Positions 16,111-45,999 of a stretch of DNA of 64,000 nucleotides are shown here, piece by piece. The notes under the pieces are model-generated. The model was not told the DNA's origin. It worked only from the letters and a program-made list of their open reading frames with translations, and searched no databases. The position numbers and the translations under genes are program-made. Within the stretch, counting starts at the first letter, position 1, and every line of letters begins with the position of its first letter. The stretch covers positions 6,352,001-6,416,000 of the forward strand of contig NZ_CP107899.1 in assembly GCF_036013915.1 (NCBI RefSeq). The letters are read 5' to 3'. The stretch is from Streptomyces sp. NBC_00464. GTDB lineage: Bacteria > Actinomycetota > Actinomycetes > Streptomycetales > Streptomycetaceae.

Positions 16111-16125
16111 TTGACTTTGTTCACA
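16111..16125 (+). promoter_or_regulatory. Island element 1 (TTGACTTTGTTCACA)
   Basis: 14 of 15 positions match the TTGACTnAGTTCACA consensus that recurs in this island. It lies in the divergent methylase/kinase promoter region, about 50 bases upstream of kinase 1. TTGACT could also serve as a -35 box. Confidence 0.65.
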
Positions 16126-16173
16126 GGCTCGGCTTGTGTCATCAGTGTGTGAATCATGTGGAGGGTGGGAGAT

Positions 16174-17115
16174 ATGCAGACGTTCGCGCCGGGAATGGTG
16201 CTGCACGATCGGTACCGACTGGAGTCCGTGCTCGGGCGGGGCGTGATGGGCCAGGTGTGGCAGGGGAGCGATCTGCGCCTGGACCGCCCCGTGGCGGTGA
16301 AGACCATCGCGTCCGAGCTGATGGCCGTGGAGCGCGGGCGTGACGAGGCCCTGGCGCGCTTCGGGCGGGAGGCCCGAGCGGCGGCCCGCCTCGACCACCC
16401 CAACGTCACCACCGTGTACGACGCCTCGGTCACCGAGGAGATCTGCTGCCTCGTGATGCAACTGGTCGACGGGACCACCCTGGACTACCTCTTCGACCAG
16501 CAGGAGGACGAACGCTTCGACGTGCCCACGGCGGCGGCTGTGGCCGCACAGCTGTGTTCCGGGCTGTCCGCCGTTCACGCTGCCGGACTGGTCCACCGGG
16601 ACCTCAAGACCCAGAACGTCATGGTCCGGAGTGACGGGATCGTCAAGATCCTGGACTTCGGACTCGTCAAGCTGCTGGCGGACGTGGACCCGCGCCTGAC
16701 CATGACCGGGGAGGGGATCGGCAACATCCTCTGCGCCTCTCCCGAGCTGCTGTCCGGCAGCGGTACCCTCGACGGCCGCAGCGACCTCTACGCGGTGGGC
16801 TGTCTCCTGCACCACATGCTCACCGGTGCACCCCCCTTCGCCACCGACCAGCCGGCGCGACTGGTCTCCTGCCACCTCGGCGAGCCCCCGCCGTCGGCTG
16901 CGACATCAGGCGTGGATGTTCCGGGCCCTCTGCAGGAGCTCATCACCGCGCTGCTTGCCAAGGATCCGGATGACCGCCCGGCTTCAGCCGCCGAGGTGTA
17001 CGTGGCCCTCGCTTCCTACCTTCCGAGCCCCGACCCGGACCGGGCCTCCCGTCGCGGCCCTGCCGAGGATCCCCGCCGCCCCTTCCATGTTCCGCAGGGG
17101 CCGCGTCCCCTGTGA
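16174..17115 (+). CDS. Ser/Thr protein kinase 1
   Basis: 313-residue Hanks-type kinase with no transmembrane segment. Gly-rich loop GRGVMGQVW, VAVK lysine, catalytic loop HRDLKTQN, DFG, and an activation segment ending with CASPELLSG. The APE motif thus reads SPE, which is common. I chose ATG 16174 (MQTFAPGMVLHDRYRLE) because the kinase fold starts there; ATG 16156 would add six residues. The last ~40 residues are Pro/Arg rich. It lies between the methylase gene and kinase 2, immediately upstream of DISARM, and is preceded by island element 1. Confidence 0.88.
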   Translation: MQTFAPGMVLHDRYRLESVLGRGVMGQVWQGSDLRLDRPVAVKTIASELMAVERGRDEALARFGREARAAARLDHPNVTTVYDASVTEEICCLVMQLVDGTTLDYLFDQQEDERFDVPTAAAVAAQLCSGLSAVHAAGLVHRDLKTQNVMVRSDGIVKILDFGLVKLLADVDPRLTMTGEGIGNILCASPELLSGSGTLDGRSDLYAVGCLLHHMLTGAPPFATDQPARLVSCHLGEPPPSAATSGVDVPGPLQELITALLAKDPDDRPASAAEVYVALASYLPSPDPDRASRRGPAEDPRRPFHVPQGPRPL

Positions 17116-17212
17116 TCGGTGAGAGGATGTTGCCGCCGATCGGGTGCGCCGCACTGCTCCGGTCGTAGGGGTGCGACAGGCGCTGTCGGCGCCGGAACTG
17201 GGGACGGGCGCG

Positions 17213-18472
17213 ATGCGGCGAAGCCTTGGGCGGTACGAGCTCACTCACGAGCTGGGCCGGGGAGGCATGGGCGTCGTCTGGGCGGCGCTCGACCCCGTGG
17301 ACGGCCGGGAGGTGGCCGTCAAGCTGCTCGTTCCCCGGGGGTACGGCTCCGAGCTCTCCACCCTGGAACGCCGGTTTCTGCGCGAGGCGAGGCTCACCGC
17401 CCGCCTGAGTCACCCCGGCATTCCGGAGGTGTACGACCACGGCAGCCAGGACGGTGAGCTGTACCTGGTGATGGAGCGCGTACCGGGCCGCGCCCTGGAC
17501 GCGGTGATCGAGGAAGAGGGCGGCCTGGCTGTCGAGCGGGCCGCCGCCGTCGCCCGGACCGTCGCCGACGTGCTGGCCTATGCCCACGGCCAAGGCGTCG
17601 TCCATCGCGACCTCAAGCCCTCCAATCTGATGATCACGCCCGCCGGTGAGGTCAAGGTGCTGGACTTCGGCGTCGCGGCCGCCCTGGAACCCCGCCCGGG
17701 CGAGACGCGCTTCACCGCGGCCAATGCCACGCCCGGGACGGTGATCTACATGGCACCCGAGCAGGCGGTCGGCAAGACCGTCCCGGCGAGTGACCTCTAC
17801 TCACTCGGCTGCGTCCTGTACGAACTGCTCGCCGGGAAACCGCCGTTCACGGAGGGCGGCCTCTTCATGCTGTACCACCAGCATGCGAATGATCCCGTGC
17901 CCCCGCTCGAAGGGCTTCGGCCCGGCGTTCCCCCGGGGCTGCGGAAGCTGGTGGAAGGGCTGCTGGAGAAGGAACCGGGGAACAGGCCCGGCTCGGCGGC
18001 AGAGGTGTGCGCGCTTCTCGCGGCCTGGGCTCCCGCACCGGCCGCGGCCGCACTCGTTCATCCGCGGCTGGCCGAGATCGAGGCCCTGCGCCGATCGGGT
18101 CACCCGGCTCCCGCGCTTGAGGAGTACCGGGACCTGCTCGCGGCCCCAGGCCTCGGTCCGGCCGATGTCCTCGCGGCCCGGGTCGGTACCGCCCTGTGTG
18201 ACGGGGCGCTCGGCCGTACCCGGGAGGCGCTGGACGAGCTCATGTCCGTACTCGCGGAACAGCGCAGCCTGCTGGGGCCGGCCGATCCCGGAGTGCTGGA
18301 CACGCGCTACGAGATCGCGGTGCTCCTGGTGCGCGCGGGGGAGCGGCGTCGTGCGGCGGAACTGCTGCGCCGACTGGCCGATGACGAGGAGCGCGCACCG
18401 GCTCAGGACGACCCGCGCCGAGGGCGTTCGCGCGCTCTCCTCAGGCGACTCGATCGCATGCCCCGCACTTGA
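17213..18472 (+). CDS. Ser/Thr protein kinase 2 with TPR-like tail
   Basis: 419 residues. The kinase domain (residues ~3-270) has GRGGMGVVW, VAVKLL, HRDLKPSN, DFGVA and APEQ, i.e. all catalytic elements. The C-terminal ~140 residues are helical and TPR-like (EALRRSGHPAPALEEYRDLLA, REALDELMSVLAEQRSLLG), without a membrane segment. The start is uncertain: ATG 17213 begins exactly at the kinase fold, while GTG 17144 or 17171 would add an Ala/Gly-rich leader. Its stop codon overlaps a TTGACT box and drmD starts 120 bases later, so the kinases and DISARM are adjacent transcriptionally. Role inferred only from context: a phospho-switch for the defence genes. Confidence 0.85.
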   Translation: MRRSLGRYELTHELGRGGMGVVWAALDPVDGREVAVKLLVPRGYGSELSTLERRFLREARLTARLSHPGIPEVYDHGSQDGELYLVMERVPGRALDAVIEEEGGLAVERAAAVARTVADVLAYAHGQGVVHRDLKPSNLMITPAGEVKVLDFGVAAALEPRPGETRFTAANATPGTVIYMAPEQAVGKTVPASDLYSLGCVLYELLAGKPPFTEGGLFMLYHQHANDPVPPLEGLRPGVPPGLRKLVEGLLEKEPGNRPGSAAEVCALLAAWAPAPAAAALVHPRLAEIEALRRSGHPAPALEEYRDLLAAPGLGPADVLAARVGTALCDGALGRTREALDELMSVLAEQRSLLGPADPGVLDTRYEIAVLLVRAGERRRAAELLRRLADDEERAPAQDDPRRGRSRALLRRLDRMPRT

Positions 18473-18492
18473 CTTTGTAATCTCTGTTCACA
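18469..18492 (+). promoter_or_regulatory. Island element 2 (split form) and putative drmD promoter
   Basis: TTGACTTTGT, then seven extra bases, then GTTCACA: both halves of the island element, pulled apart. TTGACT overlaps the kinase 2 stop; AGTAAT follows at 17-base spacing and could be a -10 box for drmD. Confidence 0.5.
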
Positions 18493-18591
18493 GTAATTGC
18501 GACATGTTAAGCTGCGACGTGCCGCTCGGATGGGAGACAGGGGTCCTTGTCCGCGGATGGCCACCGGAGATATCGAGGGGAAACAGCGCCG

Positions 18592-21500
18592 ATGACGTCA
18601 ACAGCCCAGCGCGGGAGCGAGCGGACCGGGGCGCAGGAGCTTCCCGAAGAGGGAAAGCTCGTCGAGGTACGCGGTCAGTCGTGGGTGGTCGCCCGCGTCG
18701 AGCCGTCCCCGCCCCAGGGCGACGACGACACCCGCAGGCCCGCCACCCTCGTTCACCTCCAGTCCGTGGCCGACGGCCGCTTCGGCGACACACTCTCCGT
18801 CATCTGGGAAGTGGAGCCCGGCCGCCGCGTCCTGCCCGCCGGCTCCCTCCCCGACGCCTCCACCGGTCAGTACGACCCGCCGTCCCGTCTCGCCGCGTTC
18901 CTCGACGCCGTTCGCTGGTCCGCCGTCGCCTCCGCCGACTCCAAGACGCTCCAGGCCCCTTTCCGCTCGGGGGTGGCCGTCGAGCCCTACCAGCTGGAAC
19001 CCGTCTCCCGTGCGGTCGGCGCGCCTCGCGTCAACCTGCTGCTCGCCGACGACGTCGGTCTCGGAAAGACCGTCGAGGCCGGCCTCGTCGCCCAGGAGCT
19101 GCTGCTGCGCGGCCGCGCCCGCCGCATCATGGTCGTCTGTCCCGCCGGGCTCACCCTGAAGTGGCGCGACGAGATGGCGGAGAAGTTCGGCCTCGACTTC
19201 ACCGTCGTCAACTCCGAGCACTGCGCCCGGCTCCGCCGCACCCACGGCACCGCGGCCAACCCCTTCCGCGTACACCCGCTGACCATCGTGTCCCTGCCCT
19301 GGCTGCGCGGCACCAAGGCCCAGCGCCTCCTCGACGAGGTCATCGGCGCCCCCGAGGAGAGCCGCGACGGCGACCACAAGCGGTTCTTCGACCTGCTGGT
19401 CCTCGACGAGGCCCACCACGTCGCCCCGTCCGCCCCCAAGCAGGTCTACGCGGTCGACTCCCAGCAGACGAAGCTGATCCGCCGCCTCGTCCCGCACTTC
19501 GAGCACCGCCTCTTCCTCTCCGCCACCCCGCACAACGGGTACCCCGAGTCCTACACCGCGCTCCTCGAACTCATCGACGACCAGCGCTTCGCCCGCGGCA
19601 TGGACCCCGACAAGGACGCGCTGAAGGACACGGTCGTCCGTCGCCTCAAGGCAACGGTCACCAACGCCGACGGCACACCTCGCTTCCGTGCCCGCAGGAC
19701 CGAACAACTCCCGGTCGACTACACGGACGCCGAGCGCGAGATCCACGGCCTGCTCAGCTCGTTCGCGGACCTGCGCCGCAAGAAGCTCGTCCCGACCGCC
19801 AAGGGCGGCCGCCGCGCAGCCGACCTGGTGACCCTGCTGCTGAAGAAGCGACTGTTCTCCTCCCCGGCCGCCTTCCTCCGCACGGTCCGCGTGTACCTCT
19901 CCCACCTGGAGGACACCGGCACCCGTACGCGCATCGCGGCGGCCGAAGTCCCGGACTGGCTCGACGACTTCGCGGACATGGTCGCCGACCTGGACGACCT
20001 CGGGCTCGTCGACGCGGAGGACGCCGCCCTCACCCGCTCCACCTCCCTGACCCCCGCCGAGGACAACCAGGAGCTCGACCTGCTCCAGCGGATGGAGCGC
20101 TGGGCGGTCACCCACGAGGCGGACGCCGACTCCAAGGCGGCCGTTCTCCTGCGTACCCTCAAGGCTGTCTGCCGCACCGCCGACGGCAAGCACTGGACGA
20201 ACGAGCGCATCGTCGTCTTCACGGAGTACCGGGACACCCTGGACTGGCTCGTCACCCTGCTCCGTCAGGAGAAGCTCACCGACGACGGCCGCACCGCCGT
20301 CCTGCACGGCGGCCTCAGCACCGAGGACCGCGAGCACATCCGCCTCGGTTTCCAGGCCGACCCGGCCACCGACGAGGGCGCGGTCCGCATCCTGCTCGCC
20401 ACCGACGCGGCCGGCGAGGGCATCGACCTCCAGAACCACTGTCACCGGCTGATCAACTACGACATCCCGTTCAACCCCAACAAGCTCGAACAGCGCATCG
20501 GCCGCATCGACCGCTGGGGCCAGCGCCACGACCCGGAGATCTCCCACTTCATCGGCTCCGGCTGGCAGCAGGCCCAGGCCGGATCGTACGAAGCGGACCT
20601 GGAGTTCCTGTCCCGCGTGGCAAAGAAGGTCGCCCGCATGGAACAGGACCTCGGCTCCGTCAACGCCGTCATCGCCGAGGCCGTCCAGCGCCGCATGACC
20701 GGCGACACCACGCCCGTCGACATCGACAACGCCAAGCCCCGCACCATCCAGGGCCGCCGCACCGGTGGTGAGGTCGCTCCCGAGCAGAACGTCACCGCCC
20801 AGTCCAAGCGTCTCGCCGACCAGTACGACGAGACCGTTTCCACACTCGGCCTCACCCCGGCCAACATCAAGCGCGTCGTCGACACCGCCCTCGCCCTCGA
20901 CCACCAGCCGCCCCTGGCCCCCGACCGCACCCTCGCCGAGGACTTCGACCCGGGCGACCTGTACGAGGTCCCGCCTCTCTCCGGCACGTGGGAACGAGCG
21001 AGCCGCGGTCTCACCCACAAGCTCCGTGAGGACGAGCAGCGCCCCATCACCTTCGACGCGGCCGTCGCCGCCCGGGGTCGTGACGACGTCGTCCTCACCC
21101 ACCTCAAGCACCCCCTCGTCGCCCTGTCGACCCGCCTGCTGACCGCGGCGGTCTGGAACGCGGACTCCGTCGGCCTGCATCGCGTGACCGCAGTCGTCAG
21201 CGACGACCCGGCGATCACGACCACCCTCGTCTCGGCCTACGCCCGGTACGTCCTCGTCGGCAACGACGGCACCCGGCTGCACGAGGAGGTCATCCACGCG
21301 GGCGGCTGGTTCGGCGACACGGGCCGCTTCCGCCGCTGGGAGTCCGTACGCACCCAGGCGGACGCCCTCGCGAAAGCCCTCACCGAAGGCACCGAGGCGG
21401 CCCCGCACCTCAGGCAGGAACTCACCACGGCCTGGGAGAAGCTCGCCACCCCGCTGAACACCTCCCTCGAAGCCCGCGCCCGCGAACGAGGCGACAGCCT

Positions 21501-21831
21501 GGTCAAGGCCCTCGCCGACCGCCGCAAGCAGGAAGAGGACCGCATCATGGCGACCCTCGGCCGCTTCGAAGCGACTCTGCAGGCCAAGCTCAAGGAGGAG
21601 GGCGACGGCACGGGCGAGCAGTACGCGCTCTTCAGCCGGCACGACATCACCGCCGCCGAACGCCGCCAGTACGACGACGACCGGGCCCGCTGGCAGCAAC
21701 GCCTCGACGGCATCCCCGCCGAACGCGAACGCGAACTCGCCGCGATCACCGCCCGCTACCGCGACCCCCGCGCCCACCTCTTCCCCGTAGCCGTCGTCTT
21801 CGTGATCCCCGCAAAGGAAGCCCGCCGATGA
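18592..21831 (+). CDS. drmD: DISARM SNF2-like helicase DrmD
   Basis: 1079 residues. SF2/SNF2 motor: Walker A ADDVGLGKT near residue 152, DEAHH near 271, SATPHNG (motif III), and a helicase C domain near 540-650 with AGEGIDLQ and RIGRIDRWGQ (motifs V-VI). The ~400-residue helical C-terminus contains charged coiled-coil stretches. The order drmD-drmMI with a 4-base ATGA overlap is the hallmark of class 1 DISARM. ATG 18592 is preceded by GAGGGG. The protein is thought to translocate on phage DNA as part of the DISARM restriction complex. Confidence 0.88.
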   Translation: MTSTAQRGSERTGAQELPEEGKLVEVRGQSWVVARVEPSPPQGDDDTRRPATLVHLQSVADGRFGDTLSVIWEVEPGRRVLPAGSLPDASTGQYDPPSRLAAFLDAVRWSAVASADSKTLQAPFRSGVAVEPYQLEPVSRAVGAPRVNLLLADDVGLGKTVEAGLVAQELLLRGRARRIMVVCPAGLTLKWRDEMAEKFGLDFTVVNSEHCARLRRTHGTAANPFRVHPLTIVSLPWLRGTKAQRLLDEVIGAPEESRDGDHKRFFDLLVLDEAHHVAPSAPKQVYAVDSQQTKLIRRLVPHFEHRLFLSATPHNGYPESYTALLELIDDQRFARGMDPDKDALKDTVVRRLKATVTNADGTPRFRARRTEQLPVDYTDAEREIHGLLSSFADLRRKKLVPTAKGGRRAADLVTLLLKKRLFSSPAAFLRTVRVYLSHLEDTGTRTRIAAAEVPDWLDDFADMVADLDDLGLVDAEDAALTRSTSLTPAEDNQELDLLQRMERWAVTHEADADSKAAVLLRTLKAVCRTADGKHWTNERIVVFTEYRDTLDWLVTLLRQEKLTDDGRTAVLHGGLSTEDREHIRLGFQADPATDEGAVRILLATDAAGEGIDLQNHCHRLINYDIPFNPNKLEQRIGRIDRWGQRHDPEISHFIGSGWQQAQAGSYEADLEFLSRVAKKVARMEQDLGSVNAVIAEAVQRRMTGDTTPVDIDNAKPRTIQGRRTGGEVAPEQNVTAQSKRLADQYDETVSTLGLTPANIKRVVDTALALDHQPPLAPDRTLAEDFDPGDLYEVPPLSGTWERASRGLTHKLREDEQRPITFDAAVAARGRDDVVLTHLKHPLVALSTRLLTAAVWNADSVGLHRVTAVVSDDPAITTTLVSAYARYVLVGNDGTRLHEEVIHAGGWFGDTGRFRRWESVRTQADALAKALTEGTEAAPHLRQELTTAWEKLATPLNTSLEARARERGDSLVKALADRRKQEEDRIMATLGRFEATLQAKLKEEGDGTGEQYALFSRHDITAAERRQYDDDRARWQQRLDGIPAERERELAAITARYRDPRAHLFPVAVVFVIPAKEARR

Positions 21832-24800
21832 GCCCCCGCCGCCCTGTCTCCCCTGGTCTCGCCGCAGCCAAGGCGCAGGCGCTCGACGGCCGCCGCCAGC
21901 ACCAGGAATGGCTGGACCTCACCGAGGTCTCGGGCCCCTTCCTCACCATGCCGGTCCTGCGACAGGCCTGGCCCCAGCTCGACGCCCTGGAGAAGGACGA
22001 ACGCGCCCGCCTGCGGGCCCGCCACGCGGACTGGCAGAACGACACCACGGCGGGCCGCGACGAGTGGGTCGCTTACGTCCTGCGTTCCCTCCTCGGCTGG
22101 GGCGACGCGCTCACACTCCGCCAGGGCGAGGACGAGGACATCGCCCTCGACCGCCTCACCCTCCACGTCCCCGAACACGGCGCGGTCCTCCGCCCCGACT
22201 TCGCCCTCGCCGAACCGGGCACCGACCTCGCCGCCGAACCCGACACGGCCTCGGCCGCGAAGCGCGTCCGCGTCCTCGGCACGACCGTCCCCTCGGGGAC
22301 CGTCCCCACCTCGCGCGCCGCCGCCGGCGCCGACTGGGCGGCAGCCCCGGCGGACCGCCTGGCCCGCCTGCTGCGCCACCACGACATCCCGCTCGGCCTC
22401 GTCACCGACGGCCGTTGGTGGTGCCTGGTCTGGGCCCCCCTCGGCGGCGTCACGACGACGGCGGTCTTCGACACGATCGGCTGGAACGAAGCCGCCGAAC
22501 GCAACGTCGTCCGCGCCTTCGTCTCCCTTCTGCGCCGCCGCCGCTTCTTCGAGTACGAGGACGCCGAGACGCTCGTCGGCCTGCTCAAGGCAAGCCTGGC
22601 CGCCGGCGAGGACGTCACCGAAGCGCTCGGTATCCAGGTCCGCCAGGCCGTGGAGCTCCTCGTCGACGCCATAGGGCGGGCGGACGTACGGGCGATGGAC
22701 GCGGGAGCCCCCGGGCTGCACGCCTCCGGAGTGGCCGCCGGTGAGATCTACCGGGGCGCGGTCGCCGTCATGATGCGCATCGTCTTCCTCCTGTACGCGG
22801 AGGAACGTGGCCTGCTCCCCTCGGACAACGAGGTGTACGCGACGGCGTACTCGGCCCGCTTCCTGCGCTCCGAACTCAAGGCCCGCGCAGACGAGGAGGG
22901 CGAGAGCGCCCTCGAACACACCACCTCCGCCTGGCACCGCCTCATCGCCCTCTTCCACGCGGTGCACGGCGGAGTGGACCACCCCGAGCTGCACCTCCCC
23001 GCGTACGACGGCTCGATCTTCGCCCCCGACACGTATGCCTGGCTGGAGCTCACCACCCCGCTCCTCCCGATCGACGACCGCACGGTTCTGCACATGCTCC
23101 AGTCGGTGCAGGAGGTCCGCGTCGGCACCGGAAAGAACGCGGAGGTCCGCACGCTGAGCTTCCGCGCCCTGGACGTGGAGCAGATCGGTTACGTGTACGA
23201 GGGCCTGCTCTCGTACGGCGGCGAGCGCGCGGTCGAGGACATGGTGGGCCTCATCGGCCCGGAGGGCCTCGAACACGAGGTGCCGTTGCGGGAGTTGGAG
23301 TCGCTGGCGGCGAAGTCGGGCGGCTCGGTCGCGGACCTGGCCAAGGCCATCCACGAGAAGTGGAAGGACCCGAAGCCCCCGGCGAGCGCTTCGCGGCTGG
23401 AAAAGCTGCTGGCCCCGGCGAAGGACGAGGTGGAGGCCCGCCGGCAGCTGAACGCGGTGACGAAGGAGGTCTCGCTGAGCGAGCGCCTGCTGCCGTTCTT
23501 CGGCATCCTGAGGCGCGACCTCCGTGACCTGCCGATGGTCATCCCGAACGGTTCGCTGTACGTCACGGAGTCCTCGCTCCGGAAGAACACGGGCACGCAC
23601 TACACGCCCAGGTTCCTGGCGGAGGACGTCGTCCGGCACGCACTGGAGCCGCTGGTGTACGAGCCGGGCCCGCTGCAGACGGCGGACGCGGGGGAGTGGC
23701 GGCTGAAGTCGCCCGAGCAGATCCTGAAGCTGAAGATCGCGGACATCGCGATGGGCTCGGCGGCGTTCCTGGTGGCGGCGTGCCGTTACCTGGGCGACCG
23801 ACTGATCGAGGCCTGGGAGAACGAGGGCCGCACGGACGCGATGACGTACCGGGCCGGCCGAGCCGTCGACGCGGTGACGGCCGCGGACGCGGAGCAGGAC
23901 CCGGTGGTGGTGGAGTCCCGCCGCGAGATCATCGAGCACTGCCTGTACGGGGTGGACATCAACCCGATGGCCGTGGAGATGGCGAAGCTGTCGCTGTGGC
24001 TGGTGTCGATGGACCCGACGCGGCCGTTCACGTTCCTGGACGACCGGCTCGTGGCGGGGGACTCGCTGCTGGGCGTGCACAGCATGGAGCAGCTGCAGTC
24101 GGTTCACATGAAGCCGAAGGCGCAGAGCGACGTGCTGGTCCACGAGGCCGCGTCGTTGATCGACGAGCTGACGAGGGAGCGCCTGGCGATCACGGCGATC
24201 AAGGGCGTGGACCTGCCCGCGCTCCAGCAGAAGCGGGAGCGGCTGGAGGACGTCAACCGCCACTCACGGCGCCTGCGGTTGGTGGGCGACCTGATCGCGG
24301 GGGCGGCGCTGGCGACTTGCGCGTCGGGGCGGGTGGAGTGGTACGCGCCGGACGGGGGCGAGCGGGTGAAGGACCTGTTCCCGCAGGCGGCGTGGCTCGT
24401 GGAGAAGCTCTTCGCGGAGGGCGTCGAGGACGACTCGGAGATCGTGCGGGAGACGCGGGCGACGGCTGAGGAGTGGCTGGGGGCGGAGCTGCCGGCGGGG
24501 GGTATGGAGCGGCGGCCGGTGCATTGGCCGTTGGTGTTTCCGGAGGTGTTTTCGGTGGGGGGTGGGTTCGATGCGGTGGTGGGGAACCCACCGTTCTTGG
24601 GAGGAAGCAAGATCACGGGTGCATCTGGTGACGCATTTCGTGAATACATTGTGGATTACGTTGCGGGCGGGAAGCGCGGCAATGGTGACCTGGTTGCCTA
24701 CTTTGAGTTGCGAACGCACGCATTGCTCAATATTTCGGGGCAAAGTGGCCTGATTGCTACAAATACTTTGGCGCAAGGGGATACCCGAGAGGTTGGTCTT

Positions 24801-26201: not shown

Positions 26202-26408
26202 CTATCCCCGCGCCAGCGTTACGAACGCCGCCCACTCGCCCCCGCCGACCCGCAGCACCGGCCCGCCGCCCGCGACCTTCGAGTCCCGGACGTACACCGC
26301 GCCGACGCCAGCGGCCACCTCTACGCAGTCGCCGCCGTCCGATCCGCTGTAGCTGCTCTTGAACCAGCGCAGCTCGTCAACGTTCTCGGTTACCTGCTCC
26401 ACGCTCAT
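26202..26408 (-). CDS. DUF397 protein
   Basis: 68 residues with the DUF397 signature: WFKSSYSGSDGGDCVEVA, VRDSK, and GGGEWAAFV near the end. Such small proteins are encoded next to Scr1-type XRE regulators in Streptomyces and act with them in developmental control, perhaps as antidote-like partners. The ATG overlaps the stop of the XRE gene by four bases, so the two are translationally coupled. Confidence 0.9.
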   Translation of the reverse strand: MSVEQVTENVDELRWFKSSYSGSDGGDCVEVAAGVGAVYVRDSKVAGGGPVLRVGGGEWAAFVTLARG

Positions 26409-27250: not shown

Positions 27251-27500
27251 GCGCCTTCACGTCCCTTCCCGCCACCCGTTCGTGCCCGCCCGCCGCCACC
27301 CGTAGCGTTCCTCAACTCCACTACAGCTGGGCAAGGTTCAACGGATGAGCCCTTTCCCCGGACACGGCCCCGGCCCGTACGGCACCCGTACAAGACCCGT
27401 ACAACTCAGAGCGTCGCCCCCTCGCCCGGCCCGTACCGGCTCACTTCCGTACGGCCATCAGACCTGGTCAGCGACGCTCGCAGGGTTCCACGATGACGTC

Positions 27501-27953: not shown

Positions 27954-27963
27954 ACTAAGTCAA
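27949..27963 (-). promoter_or_regulatory. Island element 3 (exact TTGACTTAGTTCACA)
   Basis: TGTGAACTAAGTCAA on the plus strand, a 15/15 match to the island consensus in reverse orientation, just upstream of the CoiA-like gene. Confidence 0.7.
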
Positions 27964-37590: not shown

Positions 37591-37605
37591 TGTGAACTGA
37601 GTCAA
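37591..37605 (-). promoter_or_regulatory. Island element 4 (exact TTGACTCAGTTCACA)
   Basis: TGTGAACTGAGTCAA on the plus strand, a 15/15 match, in the divergent region between the ParB-like and helicase genes, oriented toward the ParB-like gene. Confidence 0.7.
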
Positions 37606-37704
37606 CTGATGAACGCTCGCGTTCGGGAGTGTCGAATCCTCGCCGGGGCGGGATGTCCGACGAGTCCTGTTCCGTGGCTCACGTCTGCTGGTACGCTCGT
37701 CGCG

Positions 37705-37719
37705 TGTGCTGAGTTCACA
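37705..37719 (+). promoter_or_regulatory. Island element 5 (degenerate)
   Basis: TGTGCTGAGTTCACA: the right half is exact, three mismatches in the left half. It points toward the helicase gene, whose start is 115 bases downstream. Confidence 0.5.
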
Positions 37720-37833
37720 CTTAGTTTATGGGGCGCGCTGGGGGGCGCACGTAACCCCGTGCTCCGGTTGGCCGGGGCGTGATTTCGCAAGTCGGCCACC
37801 TGTAGGGGGCCCTCAGTAGCAGTGGAGTGGCGT

Positions 37834-40800
37834 GTGAGCCAGGGTGGGAACGTGCTGAGCGACGGCATTGAGCCGGTCGGTTCCGTGCATCACTATGCGG
37901 ATGGGCTTCATGTCCGTATCGACGAGGTCGTCCCGTACGAGCCGGTGAGCGCCGCCGGCTGTGACGGGTACCGGCAGGGTGACGATCTGATCCGGTGCAC
38001 GCTGTATCTGAGTAACGGGACAGGGGGGCCCGTCGACCTGAGCGGAATCGGACTGTCGGTGCGTGGCGGACCGTATGGAAAGACCGGCCGTCGGGTGACC
38101 GACTCCGCGAGTGGTTCGCTCGACGGCGCATTCGTCGGGACGCTGCGCACCGGGCGTCGCGTCTCCGCGACCTGGGCCTACAGCATCCCGGCCGGCACTG
38201 GCCAGGAGCTCGATCTGGAGGTCCGTTTCGGTGGCACGCACCCGCGCGCGAGTGTCACCTTCAGTACCGCGCCCCCCGCTGCACGGACCAGCGCACGTGT
38301 ACCCGCCGCCCGGGCCGCAGCGACGCCCTTGCCCGATCAGGCCGTGCTCTTCGGTGACGAACAGCGGTCACTGTTCACGCAGACTCCGGAGGTGCCCGCG
38401 GCTTCGCGCGGGGCGGCGGACGAGAGTGACGCCGCACGTGTCCGGCAGATCTTCCGCTTCCTGGCGGAGGCCGAGGAGTCCAGGACGCGCGCCGTCCGCA
38501 CCCTCGACGGGGCGGCAGGGGCCGTGTGGTTCGAGGAACTGCCGGACGATCCGGGGGTGTCCGTGATGCTCGACGGCACCCTGGCAACCGACGACCCTGC
38601 CTGGCTGACCGTCGCGAGGCCCGATCGCGAGGATGCACCGCAGCCGAACGCGTTGCTGGAACCATGGATCGACGGGACTCGGATCCGTGACTTCAAGCAG
38701 CCTCGTGCCCCGCATCTGAGACGGCGCATCGAGCCCGAATTCCCGGACTGGTCCATCGGTATCCCGCTGGAGAAGACGTACCACGAGCTCGATCAGCACC
38801 CGAAGCGGGAGAAGATCGAGAAGTTGCACGCGGCCTGGGAGCAGGAGTGGGCCGCGTGGGCGCAGCGGCGGAGGGAGATCGACCCCCTGGTCAGACTGTA
38901 CGACCGGCTCCACAAGATGCATGAGGATGCCGCCAACCTCGGTGAGGCATACGAACTCGTCCTCGGATTCGGCCGGCTCACCTGGCAGACGCCTGAGGGC
39001 CAGCGGGTGGAACGGCATCTGGTCACTCACCGTGCGACCCTCCACCTCGACCCTTCCACCGGAACGCTCATCGCGGCCCCGGATCCGGGTGGAGTGGGGC
39101 TCGAGCTGGAAGAGGGAATGCTCGACGGGGCACAGCACGTGCCGGGTTCCGTCCGCGAGGAGATCGTGGAGGTGCTGGAGAGCGCCTCGGACGTCACCGA
39201 TTCCGGGCAGCTCGACGCCCTGCACACCGTCCTGCGGAGCTGGGTCAACGCCGCGCACAGCGCAGGGAACTATCTCCCGGCGGTACAGCGCGTCACTCCG
39301 CGCAGTCTCGATGTGCCCCAGGTCGGGCTCACACCGGCGCTCGTCCTGCGTGAGCGCAACCGCCGGTCCACGCTGGACGCGCTCAAGACCATCGCCCGCC
39401 AGATCGACGCGGGTACCCCGCCCACCGCTCTGCTGAGCTACATCGCGGGCCGAGATGGTGCGCTCACCGCCGCCGACCTCGTGGCGGCGCAGGGGGAGAG
39501 GAGCCAGGACGACGGCAGCGAGATGTACTTTGCGCTTCCGGCCAACGAGGAGCAGCGGACCATTGCCGAAAGGCTGCGGACCAACCGACTCGTCGTTGTC
39601 CAAGGGCCGCCCGGCACGGGCAAGACGCACACCATCGCCAACTTGGTGACGGATCTGCTCGCGCAGGGCAAGCGTGTCCTGATCACCAGCCAGACGCCGC
39701 GCGCCCTTCGGGTGCTGCGGGACAAACTGCCGGAGTCCGTACGCGACCTGTGTGTCAGCCGGACGGAGGACGGCGCCGCCGCGCAGCGCGAGCTGGAGGC
39801 GTCCGTGGCCCGGATCCTCGGTGAGTACGCCGGTTACGACCCGACGGCTTCGCAGCGTGAGATCCGTGCGTTGCAGGCTCGGCTGGCGGCTGCCCGGACG
39901 GCACAGCAGACCATCCTGCGGGATCTGACGGCACTGCGTGAGCAGGAGACGCACCGCTTCGCGGCGGAGATCGGGGACTACAGCGGCAGCCTGCAGGAGA
40001 TCGCCGAACGGCTGGCTGTCGAGGCGGAGACGTACGGCTGGATCGGCCCGGTGCCGCAGGAACAGCCGTCGCTGAGCGCTGAGCACGCCCTGCGGCTCCT
40101 GCGCGCCACCCGTGCCTACACCCCGCTCCACCAGTCGCTCGCCGCAGAGGTGCCGGGCCCCTCCGAACTGCCGGGACCGGCCGCCTTCGAGGACGCGGTC
40201 GGCGTCGTGCGTTCGGCGGAGGAGGCACACGAGGCTGTTCGTCAGGATGAGCTGAGCCGACGTTACGACTCCGCTGTGCGCCGCCTCGACATGCACGAAC
40301 AGGAGAAGGTGTCGGCCGCCCTCGACGCCTTCGTGGGTGCACGCGCGCGGGCCGGAGCTCTGGCCGCTGCAGCGGGCGGCTGGGCCGGCGCCCTGTTGGG
40401 CGAAGCCGCCTCGGGCCAGGACTGGCAGGTCCGTAGCCGCCACACCGCGGTGACGGACCTTCTCGCCGCTGCCGAAGCCTCCCTCTCCGTCCTGGGCAGC
40501 GCCATGGTCAGCGGACTGGAGCAGTACGAACCTGCTGTGGCACTCCGCCATGCCACCACCCTGCACGACGGGTTGCGGGACGGGCAGAAGCTGCGCGGGA
40601 CGCTCGGCATCCGTTCGAAGTTCGCCAAGGCGGTGGCCCCGTTCGTGGAGGCGGTGCGGGTGGACGGCCGGTCCCCGGAGGACACCGGCACAGCCGCTGT
40701 CGTACTTGCCCGGATCCAGCTGGAACTCCGGCTGTCCCAGGTCGAGTCCGAGTGGGGCACCTCCGGCGCACCGTGGCAGGGCCCCGGCCCCAGGCTGGCC

Positions 40801-43665
40801 CGGCTGCGGCAGGACGCCGAGGCGCTCGACGCCCTCCTCGCCGTCGCGACGGCCCGCACCGACCTCGTCACGGCAGCCGCCACCTCCTCGGAGCTGAACG
40901 CCGCCGCCTGGCAGGACCCGACGGTCGAGAACGCCGTACGGGCCCTGCTGCGCGCGGCGGCCACGCTGCGTGCGGCCGAGCAGTCACGACGGATCATTGC
41001 CGGAGCCGAGGAGCTGCTGGGCGAGTGGAGCGACCGGCCGGGCGCCTCCCCGTCGGTGAGGCGTGCACTGGACGCCGTGCGTGCCCGTGACCCGGAGGGA
41101 TACCGGGAGTTCAGCCAGGAGATCGCGAAGGTCCGCGACGCGGCGCATCTTCGCGCCGATCAGCACGCTGCTCGCGCCGTGGTGCAGGAGGTCTTCCCCT
41201 CCCTTGCAGAGAGGGTGGCCGGGAGCGCCGAGGACGGAGGCTGGGACGAGCGGCTCAGCGCTCTTGCGGGCGCGTGGGCCTGGTCCGCCTGGCGGGACCG
41301 TATGGAGCGTCTCACCGATCCGGATGCCGAGCGCGTTCTGCGCCGACAGCTCACCGAGGCCGACGACGAGGCCCGCATCATGCTGGCGCGCCTTGCGGCG
41401 GCACGGGCTTGGCACCGCTGCCTCGGGCTGCTCACGGGCGACCAGTCCAGGGCGCTCAGTGCGTATCAGCAGGCCGCCCGTCGTATCAAGGGCAAGTACC
41501 AGCACCGCTACCGCCGCGACGCCCAGGCCGCGCTGCGCAAGGCGCAGACCGCGGTGCCTGCCTGGATCATGCCCCTGCACCAAGTGGCGGAGACCGTGCC
41601 CATGGACCGGCCCGGCATGTTCGACGTGGTGATCGTCGACGAGGCCAGTCAGTCGGGGCTCGAGGCCATGCTGCTGAGCTGGCTGGCTGACCGGATGGTC
41701 GTTGTCGGAGACAGCAAGCAGGTGAGCCCCTCCAACGTCGGGCTCAAGCAGGACCAGTACTTCCACCTCAGGGACCGGCTCCTCACCGGGCTCGATGAGG
41801 ACGTACGGAGCCTCTTCGGCCCGGAGTCCAGCTTCTTCGACCTCACCGAGGCGCTTTCGGCGGGCCGGGGCACGCTCATGCTCAAGGAACACTTCCGGTG
41901 CATGCCGGAGATCATCTCCTTCTCGAACGAGCTCTGTTACAACGGCCGGCTTCAGCCTCTGCGCCAGTACGGTGCCGACCGGCTGCCTCCGGTGAGAACG
42001 GTGTACGTCGAGAGCGGCGAGGCCATCGGAACCAACACTCGTCTGGCCAACTCCGCGGAGGCCGAAGCGCTCGTCGCCGAGCTGGTGCGCTGCTGTGCCG
42101 ATCCCGCGTATGAGGGCAGAAGCATGGGGATCATCAGCCTGCGGAGCAGCAAGGCGCATCTGGAAGAACTGGAAAACCTTCTGGCCGAGCGGCTGGACTA
42201 CGAGGAGCGGGAGCAGCGCCGGATCAGGGTCGGCAACGCGGAGGACTTCCAGGGCGACGAACGCAGCGTCATGTTCGTCTCGTGCCTCAACTCTCCCACC
42301 ACAGCAGCCGGTACCGTGCCCGGGGGCTTCACCGGCAAGTCCTTCGAGCAGCGCCTCAACGTGGCTGCCTCTCGCGCCCAGGACCAGGTTTGGGTGTTCC
42401 ACAGCGCTCGCGTCGAGCAGTTCCATCCGAACGATCTGCGCCGCCAGTGGCTCGACCACCTCACGCGACCCGCGGAGGAGGAGACCGTGGCGGTGCGGGG
42501 CGAGGTTCAGCCCGACGTACGGCACGAGGCGTTCGACAGTCTCTTCCAGCAGCAGGTGTACCTGGAACTGACCATGCGCGACTACCGGGTCCGGCCCGGA
42601 TACAGGGTCGGCCGGCATGCCATCGACCTGGTGGTCGAGGGCGGTACGCGAAGGCTGGCGGTGGCCTGTGACGGTGACACGTTCCCGGAGGGCGAGGACG
42701 CTTCGACCGCGGCAGCCCGGCAACGCGATCTGGAACGTGTCGACTGGACCTTCGTCCGCGTCCGGGGCAGTCGGTTCCATCTGGACCGCGAGCAGGCGCT
42801 GGCTCCACTGTGGACGGAGCTGGAGCGACTGGGCATCGAACCCGTCACGGAGACAGGGCGGGACGCGCAGGAGGAGGCCGAGGGCGTCGGAGCGATCTCG
42901 GACGAGTCCGGCGGGAGCGGGACGGAAGTCTTCGACCGGGAGGGGGAGCCTGACGCGAAGGGGGCGGCGCCGCTCGGCGGGAGCGGGGCGGGCGTGGTCG
43001 CGGCGCACCGGCCCGAAGGGGACGGCCGCGGTGCGTACAGCCGCATGGAGCGCCGGGACCGGGAGCGCGAGGAGGTCAGGGCCACAGTCGCCCGGCAGCA
43101 TCCGGCCGAGTCCGTGTTCGCTGCAGGACCGGACGCGGCGCCGGACCGCCCCACCCCCGCAGCGGCGGCAGCAGAGCGGCGGGAAGCGCTTCGCGGCGCA
43201 CCGGGAGCCTTTCCGGTGCGGTCGATCCCCGTGGGGGCGTTCCAGCGGTTGATGGGGGAGATGCAGCGGTTGCAGACCGCCGTCGACGCACCCGACGAGA
43301 TCCCCGCCGGCATCGATCCGGCCAATCTGGTGTTCCTGCGCAAGACGCAGGCGGATCAGCGTGACCGCCGGGCCAAGCGGCTGGCTTTTCTGCGGGCCTT
43401 CATCGACGCGGTGGCCATCGGAGACAGCGACGAAGCACCGTCTGTCGTGGTGCCGGGTGTCGTGCTGGTCCTTGAGTTCGACGGCCGGGTCGACACGGAC
43501 ACGCTCTACACGGTTGCCGAGCTGCCGGGCGGAGACGCGGACGCGGTCTCGCCCTCCTCGCCCCTGGGCCATGCGCTGATGTGGCAGAGGACAGGGCGAG
43601 AGCTGTCGTACAACTCGAACCAGAACACGGCGCACTCGGTCGTGATCCGAGAGATCAGGGCCTGA
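37834..43665 (+). CDS. Giant SF1 helicase with Vsr-like nuclease and GreA-like C-terminus
   Basis: 1943 residues. The N-terminal ~150 residues form a beta-rich domain. An SF1B (DNA2/NAM7/UPF1-like) helicase follows with Walker A QGPPGTGKTHT near 589, a long helical insertion (~650-1250), Walker B VIVDEASQSG near 1267, and motifs NVAASRAQDQ and EDFQGDERSVMF. Residues ~1565-1665 resemble the DUF559/Vsr-type endonuclease fold (GRHAIDLVVEG, LAVACDGD). After a Pro/Ala/Arg linker, residues ~1865-1943 resemble the C-terminal FKBP-like domain of GreA/GreB (DAVSPSSPLGHALMWQRTGRE). I chose GTG 37834 for its GGAG site. Helicase-nuclease giants of this type occur in phage defence; the GreA-like tail suggests contact with RNA polymerase. 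Confidence 0.8.
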   Translation: MSQGGNVLSDGIEPVGSVHHYADGLHVRIDEVVPYEPVSAAGCDGYRQGDDLIRCTLYLSNGTGGPVDLSGIGLSVRGGPYGKTGRRVTDSASGSLDGAFVGTLRTGRRVSATWAYSIPAGTGQELDLEVRFGGTHPRASVTFSTAPPAARTSARVPAARAAATPLPDQAVLFGDEQRSLFTQTPEVPAASRGAADESDAARVRQIFRFLAEAEESRTRAVRTLDGAAGAVWFEELPDDPGVSVMLDGTLATDDPAWLTVARPDREDAPQPNALLEPWIDGTRIRDFKQPRAPHLRRRIEPEFPDWSIGIPLEKTYHELDQHPKREKIEKLHAAWEQEWAAWAQRRREIDPLVRLYDRLHKMHEDAANLGEAYELVLGFGRLTWQTPEGQRVERHLVTHRATLHLDPSTGTLIAAPDPGGVGLELEEGMLDGAQHVPGSVREEIVEVLESASDVTDSGQLDALHTVLRSWVNAAHSAGNYLPAVQRVTPRSLDVPQVGLTPALVLRERNRRSTLDALKTIARQIDAGTPPTALLSYIAGRDGALTAADLVAAQGERSQDDGSEMYFALPANEEQRTIAERLRTNRLVVVQGPPGTGKTHTIANLVTDLLAQGKRVLITSQTPRALRVLRDKLPESVRDLCVSRTEDGAAAQRELEASVARILGEYAGYDPTASQREIRALQARLAAARTAQQTILRDLTALREQETHRFAAEIGDYSGSLQEIAERLAVEAETYGWIGPVPQEQPSLSAEHALRLLRATRAYTPLHQSLAAEVPGPSELPGPAAFEDAVGVVRSAEEAHEAVRQDELSRRYDSAVRRLDMHEQEKVSAALDAFVGARARAGALAAAAGGWAGALLGEAASGQDWQVRSRHTAVTDLLAAAEASLSVLGSAMVSGLEQYEPAVALRHATTLHDGLRDGQKLRGTLGIRSKFAKAVAPFVEAVRVDGRSPEDTGTAAVVLARIQLELRLSQVESEWGTSGAPWQGPGPRLARLRQDAEALDALLAVATARTDLVTAAATSSELNAAAWQDPTVENAVRALLRAAATLRAAEQSRRIIAGAEELLGEWSDRPGASPSVRRALDAVRARDPEGYREFSQEIAKVRDAAHLRADQHAARAVVQEVFPSLAERVAGSAEDGGWDERLSALAGAWAWSAWRDRMERLTDPDAERVLRRQLTEADDEARIMLARLAAARAWHRCLGLLTGDQSRALSAYQQAARRIKGKYQHRYRRDAQAALRKAQTAVPAWIMPLHQVAETVPMDRPGMFDVVIVDEASQSGLEAMLLSWLADRMVVVGDSKQVSPSNVGLKQDQYFHLRDRLLTGLDEDVRSLFGPESSFFDLTEALSAGRGTLMLKEHFRCMPEIISFSNELCYNGRLQPLRQYGADRLPPVRTVYVESGEAIGTNTRLANSAEAEALVAELVRCCADPAYEGRSMGIISLRSSKAHLEELENLLAERLDYEEREQRRIRVGNAEDFQGDERSVMFVSCLNSPTTAAGTVPGGFTGKSFEQRLNVAASRAQDQVWVFHSARVEQFHPNDLRRQWLDHLTRPAEEETVAVRGEVQPDVRHEAFDSLFQQQVYLELTMRDYRVRPGYRVGRHAIDLVVEGGTRRLAVACDGDTFPEGEDASTAAARQRDLERVDWTFVRVRGSRFHLDREQALAPLWTELERLGIEPVTETGRDAQEEAEGVGAISDESGGSGTEVFDREGEPDAKGAAPLGGSGAGVVAAHRPEGDGRGAYSRMERRDREREEVRATVARQHPAESVFAAGPDAAPDRPTPAAAAAERREALRGAPGAFPVRSIPVGAFQRLMGEMQRLQTAVDAPDEIPAGIDPANLVFLRKTQADQRDRRAKRLAFLRAFIDAVAIGDSDEAPSVVVPGVVLVLEFDGRVDTDTLYTVAELPGGDADAVSPSSPLGHALMWQRTGRELSYNSNQNTAHSVVIREIRA

Positions 43666-43683
43666 CCGGCTGCCTCCGGCGGC

Positions 43684-43716: not shown

Positions 43717-43722
43717 GGCCGC

Positions 43723-45894
43723 TCAGCCGGTCACCGGGTCGAGCATCGGGCTGCGCTGTCCGTTCCAGGAGACGGCCAGCGCGTCACGGGCCCGGGTGCA
43801 CGCGACGAACAGCAGACAGTGCTCCGCCAGCAGGTCGGACTGGTGCTGGACCGGGTCCACCTCGACCGGAGTCACCTGCTGTGCGAACGGAAGCACCGCG
43901 GCTGTCACGCCGACAACGGCCACACAGCGGAACTCCAGCCCCTTCATGGCGTGCATCGTGGCCACCCGCACCCCCGAGGCTGTGGGGCCCGGATCGTCAC
44001 GGACCGCCACCGCGGGGATGCCTTCCCTGCGCAGGCGTGAGATGACCGAGTCGACCACGGTGTTGAACCGGGCACATACCGCCACCTCCGAGGGCTTCAC
44101 CCCGTCCTGGTTCGTCCAGGCCCTGATCTGTTCGACCAGCGCTCCGATCTCCGCTTCCTGACTGCCGTACCCGTGCGCGGACGGGGTGCGGCCGTGGAGC
44201 TGGGAGCGGTAGCCCCGCAGCGAGTCGCGGCGGCCCTCGGTGTCGTCGTCCTCGCCCAGCCGGCCCACCGGATGCCCGTCGAGCAGCGATGCGGACCAGC
44301 GCAGGATCTCTTCCGTGCTGCGGTAGTTGAGGCGCAGTCGGGACGTCCGTCCGCGCACATGGATGCCCAGCGAGCGCAGCGACACCCGGGAGTCGTAGAT
44401 GCGCTGATGCGGATCGCCCACGAGGAACAGATCGTCCGATCGCGGTGCCACGCAGGCACGCAGCACCCGCCACTGGGCCGGGTGGAGGTCCTGGGCCTCG
44501 TCGACCACGACATGCCGGTAGCGCGGACCGCTGTCGGCGAGGCAGCTTGCCGCCTGATCGCACAACTGCGTGTAGGTCGCCGAGTGACGGGAGGACACAT
44601 CTCCCGTGAACCGCTCCATCACACGCCACAGACGGGCACGCTGGACTCGTCCCACCTGGGTGCCGCGGCCTCTGCGTACACAGCGGAGATACTCCTCGGG
44701 CGTGCGAATGCCCTGGGCCAGCACGACGTTGCGGAGTTCCTGGGACAGGAACTGCTCGTTCCACGGGAGGTCCTCACGGGCCGTGGCACGGGTCCAGGCG
44801 CTCCGCTCCGCCGCCGCGGAGAGCGGCCGTGGTGCGGTGCCGCGTGCCTCCCGGACGACCCGCGCCGCCAGGGAGTCCACCGTCGTGACGTCGACCCTCT
44901 CGAGCAGGTGGGCGTCGGCCTTGCCGAGCAGGAGAGCCAGGCTGTCGCGCAGGGCGGCAGCCATGGCGTTGGTGAAGGTGGTGAGCAGAATCCGGTCGCC
45001 GTCGTGGCCGGTGCGCAGAAGGTGGCGTACGCGATGCAGCGCGACCACGGTCTTGCCGGTTCCGGGCCCACCGGTTACCTGAGCGGCCCCGTTGAACCCC
45101 GGGTGGTAGGCGAATCGCCGTTGGGCGGGGTGGAGGAAGATCCTCCACCGTGTCAGGTCCTCGGTGAGGATGCGCTCCAGTTCGCCCGGGCCGGTGACCT
45201 CGACGATGCGGTCGGGGCTGTTGAGGATGGCCTCGGTGAGGGTGACGGCCGGCCGGTCTCCGGCGGTACGGACCGTCTGGCCGCGGGAAGCGATCAGCTG
45301 TTCCCACACGTCCTCGGCCGAGTAGCCGGCCGCAAGGAACTCCAGTACCTCGTACTGGTCGGCCGGCATCATCGGCGGAGCCATCACGGAAAGGTCCTCC
45401 GCGGTGACGCAGACCCGGGCCAGTCGCAGCACCTGGTCGTCGATGCCGAGATCGCGCAGTGCGGTGTCGGATTGCTTCTCGAAGAGGCGGGCGGGGGCGG
45501 CAACGGCTTTTGTCTCGAAGTACGTCTCCATCTGCTCCAGGGCCTCGACGTTGCGTACTTCAAGGCCTCCGGTCGCACCGTTGACGGAGTAGGCACGCTT
45601 GCAGGCCCAGTTGATCGCCTCGTCGTGCGTGGCAACCCTCAGCAGAGTGAACAACTCGCTGCCGTCGTCGGGCGCGAGGAGGACGCCACGGTACGACTTG
45701 GTGATGCGGATCGTGCGGATCCGGCGGTCGTGCGCCCGTTCCAGCTTCTCCAGATGCATCCCTTTGCTCGCGTGGAGCTGGGGGACGGTCATGCCGCGGA
45801 ACATCTGGATCGCGTCGTTCACCTCCTTCTGCACAGGACGTTGCAGCGAGATGAGGTCCGCAACGAAGTCGTCGGAGAGGGCGAGTCGGGGCAT
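43723..45894 (-). CDS. RelE-like domain fused to UvrD/REP helicase
   Basis: 723 residues. Residues ~1-100 resemble a RelE/ParE-type toxin fold (FRGMTVPQLHASKGMHLEKL, IRTIRITKSYRGVLL). An SF1A helicase follows: Walker A TGGPGTGKTVVAL near 275, DEAQD, LRLNYRSTEEI near 520, and TMHAMKGLEFRCV near 645. I chose the ATG at 45894 (MPRLAL) because AGGA lies five bases before it; ATG 45906 is the alternative. It is divergent from drmA and shares its regulatory region with an exact island element. The RelE-like part may act as an RNA- or ribosome-binding sensor or as a latent toxin controlled by the helicase. Confidence 0.8.
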   Translation of the reverse strand: MPRLALSDDFVADLISLQRPVQKEVNDAIQMFRGMTVPQLHASKGMHLEKLERAHDRRIRTIRITKSYRGVLLAPDDGSELFTLLRVATHDEAINWACKRAYSVNGATGGLEVRNVEALEQMETYFETKAVAAPARLFEKQSDTALRDLGIDDQVLRLARVCVTAEDLSVMAPPMMPADQYEVLEFLAAGYSAEDVWEQLIASRGQTVRTAGDRPAVTLTEAILNSPDRIVEVTGPGELERILTEDLTRWRIFLHPAQRRFAYHPGFNGAAQVTGGPGTGKTVVALHRVRHLLRTGHDGDRILLTTFTNAMAAALRDSLALLLGKADAHLLERVDVTTVDSLAARVVREARGTAPRPLSAAAERSAWTRATAREDLPWNEQFLSQELRNVVLAQGIRTPEEYLRCVRRGRGTQVGRVQRARLWRVMERFTGDVSSRHSATYTQLCDQAASCLADSGPRYRHVVVDEAQDLHPAQWRVLRACVAPRSDDLFLVGDPHQRIYDSRVSLRSLGIHVRGRTSRLRLNYRSTEEILRWSASLLDGHPVGRLGEDDDTEGRRDSLRGYRSQLHGRTPSAHGYGSQEAEIGALVEQIRAWTNQDGVKPSEVAVCARFNTVVDSVISRLRREGIPAVAVRDDPGPTASGVRVATMHAMKGLEFRCVAVVGVTAAVLPFAQQVTPVEVDPVQHQSDLLAEHCLLFVACTRARDALAVSWNGQRSPMLDPVTG

Positions 45895-45984
45895 GGGCGT
45901 CCTCATGTCACTCGGTGGCCGGTGGTCGAGGAACAGACTAGAGAGTCTGTGCACGAGGATGTGCGGCACCACTGCATCGTCTTG

Positions 45985-45999
45985 TGTGAACTCAGTCAA
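45985..45999 (-). promoter_or_regulatory. Island element 6 (exact TTGACTGAGTTCACA)
   Basis: TGTGAACTCAGTCAA on the plus strand, a 15/15 match, midway between the divergent RelE-UvrD gene and drmA, 77 bases before the drmA start. Confidence 0.7.

Follow-up and report, generated by a model that had tools for sequence, protein, structure and literature searches.

Some DNA methyltransferases act as transcriptional regulators: M.SsoII and M.Ecl18kI do so via their N-terminal region (PMC3695355; PMC3978073), and regulation by M.Ecl18kI is reported to survive loss of catalysis (PMC3695355). The paper on the repressor RptR describes the control of defence systems in general as little known (PMC12255303). 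Among such systems, ARMADA is defined by a YprA helicase, a BrxH/DrmD-like helicase and a PglX/DrmMI-like methyltransferase (PMC12458937). We analysed a stretch of 64,000 nucleotides of Streptomyces sp. NBC_00464 (contig NZ_CP107899.1, positions 6,352,001 to 6,416,000; hereafter the window), which holds a complete DISARM class 1 set (drmD, drmMI, drmA, drmB and drmC) and a recurrent 15-bp element, TGTGAACTNAGTCAA. Our analysis indicates that TGTGAACTNAGTCAA is probably a defence-island operator, most likely read by a helix-turn-helix (HTH)-methyltransferase encoded at 14029-16014 on the minus strand, which would control several systems together with its own gene.

This protein of 661 residues is predicted to join a winged HTH (wHTH), an HsdM-like N6-methyltransferase and an HsdS-like target-recognition domain. 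Pfam gave N6_Mtase (6.4e-29) and a weak HTH_17 match under the cut-off (E 0.0013), and PADLOC gave mad1 on residues 9-58, MTase_I and, weakly, Specificity_I. In the AF2 model (pLDDT 86.9), an N-terminal wHTH is followed by HsdM-like and HsdS-like structures. An N-terminal HTH is thus fused to a DNA methyltransferase, as in bifunctional methyltransferase-transcription factors and specifically in M.SsoII and M.Ecl18kI. Whereas these two are C5-methyltransferases of one small type II pair, the fold and profile here are those of an HsdM-like N6 enzyme with an HsdS-like part, not of a C5-cytosine methyltransferase of the SsoII group, and many promoters of several large systems are concerned. The arrangement also resembles CapK/CapS, a kinase and an autoregulated DNA-binding repressor found before diverse immune operons; however, CapK belongs to the GHKL kinases and CapS is of the STAS-wHTH type (PMC13373217), whereas here a member of the Ser/Thr kinase family accompanies a methyltransferase-wHTH and phosphorylation is putative. 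RptR is likewise a defence-island repressor tied to type I restriction, with sites over the -10, but it is a small separate protein of Gammaproteobacteria that recognizes TAGCTA repeats (PMC12255303). BrxR/CapW, also co-located with diverse defence systems, are WYL-domain regulators (PMC9122601, PMC9122589, PMC9122588), whereas the 14029-16014 protein had no WYL match (not every open reading frame of the island was scanned). By PADLOC and NCBIfam models, finally, the HTH matches mad1, the methyltransferase mad2 and the kinase mad6 of MADS. MADS has one model for mad1 and another for mad2, whereas here a single protein unites HTH, methyltransferase and recognition domain and is encoded beside DISARM, ARMADA-like and pPIWI-RE genes.

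TGTGAACTNAGTCAA matched the window exactly at 27949, 37591 and 45985, with one mismatch at 16111 and with three at 36700 and 37705. The scan confirmed the exact and one-mismatch sites listed by the initial annotation, as well as its view that they exceed chance: six matches at up to three mismatches were found against a mean of 1.23 in shuffled sequence, and none of 100 shuffles reached six. All three exact sites are intergenic, as claimed, the one at 27949 overlapping the stop codon of the HATPase gene. Across the whole genome (8.96 Mb, three contigs), TGTGAACTNAGTCAA occurred exactly only these three times, and the only one-mismatch matches were 16111 and C1:4697970 (TGTGAACCGAGTCAA), 1.7 Mb away. 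As the latter precedes a 46%-identical homologue of the 14029-16014 gene, both one-mismatch sites of the genome stand before one gene family. Two findings named in advance as contrary to a shared promoter element, scatter over the genome and absence from orthologous promoters, were not seen: exact sites were confined to the island, and the motif was kept at orthologous promoters. The palindromic core had been taken to make a dimeric regulator likely. An inverted repeat is indeed present (TGTGAAC / AGTCAA), but as it is imperfect and the unit common to variant sites is TGTGAAC, a dimer is not secured. No Rfam family reached gathering scores in the window, so no RNA element was found.

We next considered the genus. 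Exact TGTGAACTNAGTCAA was present in 33 of 392 genomes, against 2 of 392 for the reversed control (Fisher 2e-8), and 43 of its 47 sites lay within loci with DISARM-island, ARMADA-like or pPIWI-RE genes; in G131, only island cargo and no drm gene was seen. The remaining four are in G107, G310, G029 and G053. Mapped loci comprised class 1 DISARM islands, pPIWI-RE operons and ARMADA-like loci, the last combining a kinase with YprA and DrmD-like helicases and a DrmMI-like methyltransferase; these were provisionally assigned from the order c16-drmD-c17 and PADLOC matches, following the definition in PMC12458937. As motif genomes were chosen by the motif itself, the gene contexts of their loci are selected; less selected are the drmA promoters, the YprA promoters and the regulator homologues in genomes without an exact site. 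Forty-six of the 47 sites avoid called genes if overlaps with gene ends of at most 30 bp are tolerated. The 47th falls within the drmA call of G116, which is over-extended: in the named copy of that contig (L159), the site is upstream of drmA. Genes lying divergent or downstream within 500 bp were UvrD (13), drmA (13), kinase (10), ParB-like (8), YprA (8), methyltransferase (7), giant helicase (6) and, in smaller numbers, others. One regulon for both DISARM halves and the cargo, as first proposed, is supported by these data, and elsewhere it would reach further, to ARMADA-like and pPIWI-RE loci. In a sample of 396 genomes of the phylum, matches were found only in this genome and one of the same genus. 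Other DISARM loci (953 kb) gave four matches at up to two mismatches against 1.6 in single-base shuffles, three of them before a methyltransferase, drmD or drmA, a weak sign that the motif extends beyond the genus. Separately, the G053 site (L031 / L064) adjoins no recognizable defence gene; its neighbour, c81, flanks a UvrD-like helicase with a site in G029, and the G053 site is perhaps the scar of a lost insertion.

At drmA, the scan covered 400 bp upstream, or less where a contig ended, in 63 of 79 loci, 16 being omitted because they lacked an N-terminus or were distant and not entered; shuffles were again of single bases. All 28 drmA genes from Streptomycetaceae with 65% identity or more had a site at up to two mismatches (24 exact, three with one, one with two), in constant direction and 72-134 bp upstream of the start. 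Among other drmA genes this held for 1 of 35, and S. sp. JJ36 (59% identity), one Streptomyces of this group, had none. The block was 95% identical on average between pairs of these promoters, compared with 35% for the flanks, in an alignment anchored on the motif itself that comprised 28 promoters, that of the window and all of the above except L184. Upstream of Actinomadura drmA (L196, L197, L188), other TGTGTA...TACA-like stretches were noticed, perhaps operators of diverged HTHs, with motif matches at chance level.

The YprA genes, of which the best 30 of 68 listed matches were tested, fell into two groups. All ten of at least 67% identity, each from a motif genome, carried a site 97-106 bp upstream, whereas none of 20 in a second clade (~60% identity) did, their best matches having 5-7 mismatches. 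The motif therefore tracks the regulatory module and not the helicase family. At drmD, a split form of the motif had been annotated at 18469; what is conserved is a different 20-mer, TTTGTAATCTCTGTTCACAG, at 18474-18493, with the TTGACT half restricted to this genome. TTTGTAATCTCTGTTCACAG is unique in the genome at up to three mismatches and, in ten readable relatives, identical in seven and changed at 2-4 positions in three. The two degenerate sites fared differently. That at 37705 stood: of 20 orthologous giant-helicase promoters, 18 have GTTCACA, 17 of these in the form TGTGCTNAGTTCACA; GTTCACA is preceded by TGTGCTNA in 17 and TGCGCTCA in one, with TACNCT ahead in all 18. That at 36700 did not: its three-mismatch match sits in the last part of the ParB-like gene and shows no conservation at that position. 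In 6 of 17 relatives, this genome not among them, a GmrSD promoter has a site at up to two mismatches, but at a position other than 36700. Loci L328-L340 (13 of 13 with a site) hold largely the same genes as L262-L291 and were counted once.

The initial annotation proposed no regulator, and the best candidate begins 97 bp outside its interval. A homologue of the 14029-16014 protein was present in all 33 motif genomes, in 31 at at least 47% identity and nearly full length; the weakest were in G310 (46%) and G053 (44%). Its wHTH (residues 8-60; 15835..15993, minus strand) is the best-conserved domain, 19 of 52 residues (9-60) being invariant in 48 homologues. In the protein itself, a putative active methyltransferase, motif IV is intact (CNPPF), whereas among the 48 the catalytic N/D is His in 14 and Thr in one, and the aromatic fourth residue is lost in eight; regulation without catalysis, as reported for M.Ecl18kI, would fit this decay. 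Own-promoter sites at up to two mismatches were found in 30 of 30 motif-genome loci, 75-117 bp upstream and always with TGTGAAC towards the gene. A less selected sample came from 40 genomes picked among those without an exact site: among the 30 of 37 listed matches for which a locus was at hand, the homologue had an upstream site at up to two mismatches in 21 loci and at up to three in 23, whereas in-gene controls had 4-7 mismatches.

Six of the seven homologues without such a site in this sample share an altered recognition helix, GVTRATVSNW instead of GVGRAAVSNW, and have instead an altered site, TGAAAGCANTGTCAA, 68-81 bp upstream. In those six genomes, TGAAAGCANTGTCAA occurs once per genome at up to one mismatch, solely at the promoter of that homologue, and the block is identical at 14-15 of 15 positions against 25-93% for the flanks. 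Four of the six genomes also encode a normal-helix homologue with TGTGAACCGAGTCAA. Site and helix thus change together in one subfamily, the main reason why we prefer the HTH-methyltransferase to the XRE protein of the island as the reader of TGTGAACTNAGTCAA. The second of the two changes, A24T, is the better correlate, since homologues with the first change only keep TGTGAAC or a weak form of it.

The position of the sites bears on the mode of action. At drmA, the site (45985..45999, plus strand; TGTGAACTCAGTCAA, exact) spans the -35 TTGTGT (45982-45987) and the 17-bp spacer to TATATT (46005-46010); 19 of 28 drmA promoters have TTG at -35 and 25 of 28 a -10-like hexamer. The exact site TGTGAACTGAGTCAA (37591..37605, plus strand) supplies TTGACT on the other strand as a fitting -35 of the ParB-like gene, with a -10-like [TC]ANNNT 16-19 bp on in 18 of 20 loci, compared with 2 of 19 for the UvrD-side control; the suggestion that TTGACT doubles as a -35 box therefore holds for the ParB-like gene but not for UvrD. 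A second giant-helicase operator (37705..37719, minus strand; TGTGCTGAGTTCACA on the plus strand) comes just after the -10-like TACGCT (37692-37697), over the likely start point. The variant drmD operator CTGTGAACAGAGATTACAAA (18474..18493, minus strand), TGTGAAC with GATTACA, covers the likely -35, and TGTGAACAAAGTCAA (16111..16125, minus strand), between methyltransferase and kinase, lies at the likely -35 of the methyltransferase gene. The last exact site, TGTGAACTAAGTCAA (27949..27963, plus strand), is intergenic before the CoiA-like gene. As the sites cover the -35 and spacer or the likely start point, where a bound protein blocks RNA polymerase, repression is favoured. Predicted targets of the HTH-methyltransferase are its own promoter and the promoters of drmA, drmD (through the variant site), the ParB-like gene, the giant helicase, UvrD and the CoiA-like gene, all of which it would bind and most likely repress. 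In most mapped loci the methyltransferase has a linked kinase (G107 showed none), which, as CapK lifts repression by CapS (PMC13373217), is the natural candidate to release repression here. Alternatively, the signal may come from phage DNA or an inhibitor that engages the methyltransferase part.

The same protein could act as an activator, or both ways, which we consider possible but not likely. TTG is missing from the -35 of the methyltransferase promoters and of 9 of 28 drmA promoters, and M.Ecl18kI inhibits its own gene while activating that of its nuclease (PMC3695355); activation at drmA or at the methyltransferase gene is thus conceivable, but the giant-helicase operator just after the -10-like box and the ParB-like -35 within an operator speak against it. 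A different reader is less probable. That the operator is bound by the XRE/DUF5753 protein of the island (26405-27250), WhiJ-type with DUF397 (BldB-like) and HATPase (AbaA-like) partners, appears improbable in view of missing close homologues, siteless XRE promoters and differing helices. Ten of 35 mapped regions (many cut short), of both defence types, showed the full triad, close XRE homologues (E <= 1e-70) go with an exact motif in 14 of 47 genomes against 19 of 345 others, four of nine genomes with a close XRE and no exact motif have one-mismatch sites, and WhiJ9 of S. venezuelae binds DNA adjoining its own gene (PMC10294661). However, the XRE-HATPase intergenic region of this genome has no site, 29 relative XRE loci (L130-L158) have no exact match, with a best match of 1-3 mismatches in five, and of 19 genomes that encode a full-length XRE (74% identity or more), nine have no exact motif. 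Moreover, no XRE homologue at E <= 1e-70 was found in the DISARM-island motif genomes G116, G032, G099 and G288, which do encode the HTH-methyltransferase, and the recognition helices of ARMADA-type XREs and the G310 XRE differ although the site is the same (in a tree-free comparison that omitted the G348 protein, whose gene is called in two pieces). The WhiJ9 site consists of direct repeats CGXXCTCAAC (PMC10294661), whereas the site here is a single imperfect inverted repeat that most XRE genes do not have next to them; no scan for CGXXCTCAAC was made.

A core Streptomyces regulator outside the island is more doubtful still. The Rex operator is the palindrome TGTGAACNNNTTCACA. The left half of TGTGAACTNAGTCAA is identical to its half-site, and some loci with motif sites showed no XRE triad, but the redox repressor Rex was rejected as the right half is a conserved AGTCAA and not TTCACA. 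Such a regulator would also leave unexplained why the site changes with the methyltransferase HTH and is linked to module-bearing loci. By-eye comparison with PafBC, LexA, ECF and other Streptomyces motifs gave no fit either. That the motif marks recombination or mobility, as a terminal repeat or att-like sequence, would suit islands of such patchy distribution (33 of 392 genomes), but we regard it as very improbable given the narrow spacing to start codons and -10 boxes, the site between divergent genes and the single use upstream of altered-helix genes; no dedicated search for att or terminal repeats was made.

Several observations weigh against the HTH-methyltransferase as reader or against its repressor role. 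Homologues were found in 26 of 40 genomes without an exact motif; with a family this common, 33 of 33 alone is weak, and the weight rests on the autogenous sites and the covariation. Some of the 30 own-promoter sites are themselves exact matches by which genomes were chosen. The covariation concerns a single subfamily of six related genes, and where the helix has the first change alone (GVTRAAVSNW, two homologues), L317 keeps TGTGAAC and L316 has just a weak, four-mismatch site. The helix cannot explain all positions, as the second-locus helix is of the DISARM type but the centre of its site differs (CG versus mostly [AT]N). This second-locus-type site lies ~60-70 bp upstream of the likely -10, hence upstream of the core promoter, which would suit activation. 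In G053, the motif site is on a different contig from the only homologue found (44%). The co-occurrence of the XRE with the motif is also significant. In other actinobacteria, finally, drmA sits in an operon behind drmMI, so that the missing site there is no strict negative.

Some further features of the methyltransferase family were noted. In other actinobacteria (L188, L189, L195, L196, L200, L201, L203, L210, L217, L219), an HTH-methyltransferase gene directly follows drmC and is itself followed by a kinase, and the family looks like an old DISARM companion. The second locus of this genome, under TGTGAACCGAGTCAA (C1:4697970, L084:9971), encodes an HTH-methyltransferase with HPPF as motif IV, then a small membrane-like protein and a Ser/Thr kinase; this type of locus recurs in 12 of 40 genomes of the genus, and many relatives have a GGTCAATAAGACCA-like stretch upstream of it.

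In the window, the island continues on the plus strand from the methyltransferase with a Ser/Thr kinase, PD-T4-6 / mad6-like (16174..17115), a second Ser/Thr kinase with TPR (17213..18472), drmD (18592..21831) and drmMI (21828..26117), both called by PADLOC. On the minus strand follow the DUF397 and XRE/DUF5753 genes (26202..27250), a bldB/whiJ-like pair, then on the plus strand the abaA-like HATPase_c_2 gene (27345..27953) and the CoiA-like gene (28036..29886, start uncertain, 27967-28036). The latter and the ParB-like gene (36690..37529, minus strand) keep the names given in the initial annotation and have no Pfam match. The giant helicase (37822..43665, plus strand) resembles ProA / Hhe / MkoC and has a C-terminal GreA-like domain (residues 1845-1942); a GajB-like UvrD-type helicase (43723..45894, minus strand) and drmA, drmB and drmC (46076..52544, plus strand; PADLOC) complete the set. 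Directly behind drmC, at 52547-58263, is a mutasome-like pair of a DnaE-type DNA polymerase III alpha and a Y-family polymerase. At 31533-32030 lies a prokaryotic phospholipase A2; G065 and G116 have relatives of it (cluster c27) close to motif sites. To the left of the island are a tRNA-Gly (13195-13284) and, at 2362-11507, a SLATT_3/SLATT_1 protein, a radical-SAM protein, a TIR protein and a TIR/NB-ARC/TPR protein. Gene calls and starts in the fetched regions came from a home-made codon model, with some genes missed or mis-started.

A bolder proposal, which we offer tentatively, is that the HTH-methyltransferase is an immune sensor that infection would pull off its TGTGAAC operators, switching on DISARM, ARMADA-like and pPIWI-RE systems together. 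Its methyltransferase and recognition domains would be kept as a detector, probably catalysis-free in some lineages (motif IV HPPF or NPPS), and the trigger might be phage DNA, a DNA-mimic or S-adenosylmethionine-depleting antirestriction factor, or kinase signalling. In this way, attacking restriction itself would turn on defence systems. Co-resident HTH/operator pairs (TGTGAAC versus TGAAAGC) may then serve as orthogonal channels. A literature search on DISARM, Streptomyces and regulation found no earlier report, searches on MADS and pPIWI-RE gave no helpful papers, and none of five spelled-out motif forms appeared in the text searched, most subscription papers and most preprints being outside its coverage. 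As far as we found, the type-I-like N6 architecture, the sites across several large unrelated systems and the orthogonal-looking operator pairs are new.

How large defence systems such as DISARM are silenced and switched on is little known, and a short, genome-rare site here ties several unrelated systems to one testable protein, for which the natural pairs of site and helix are ready-made controls. A gene preceded by TGTGAACTNAGTCAA also offers a search rule for Streptomyces defence genes. Overall, these data suggest that restriction-type methyltransferases can become immunity switches.

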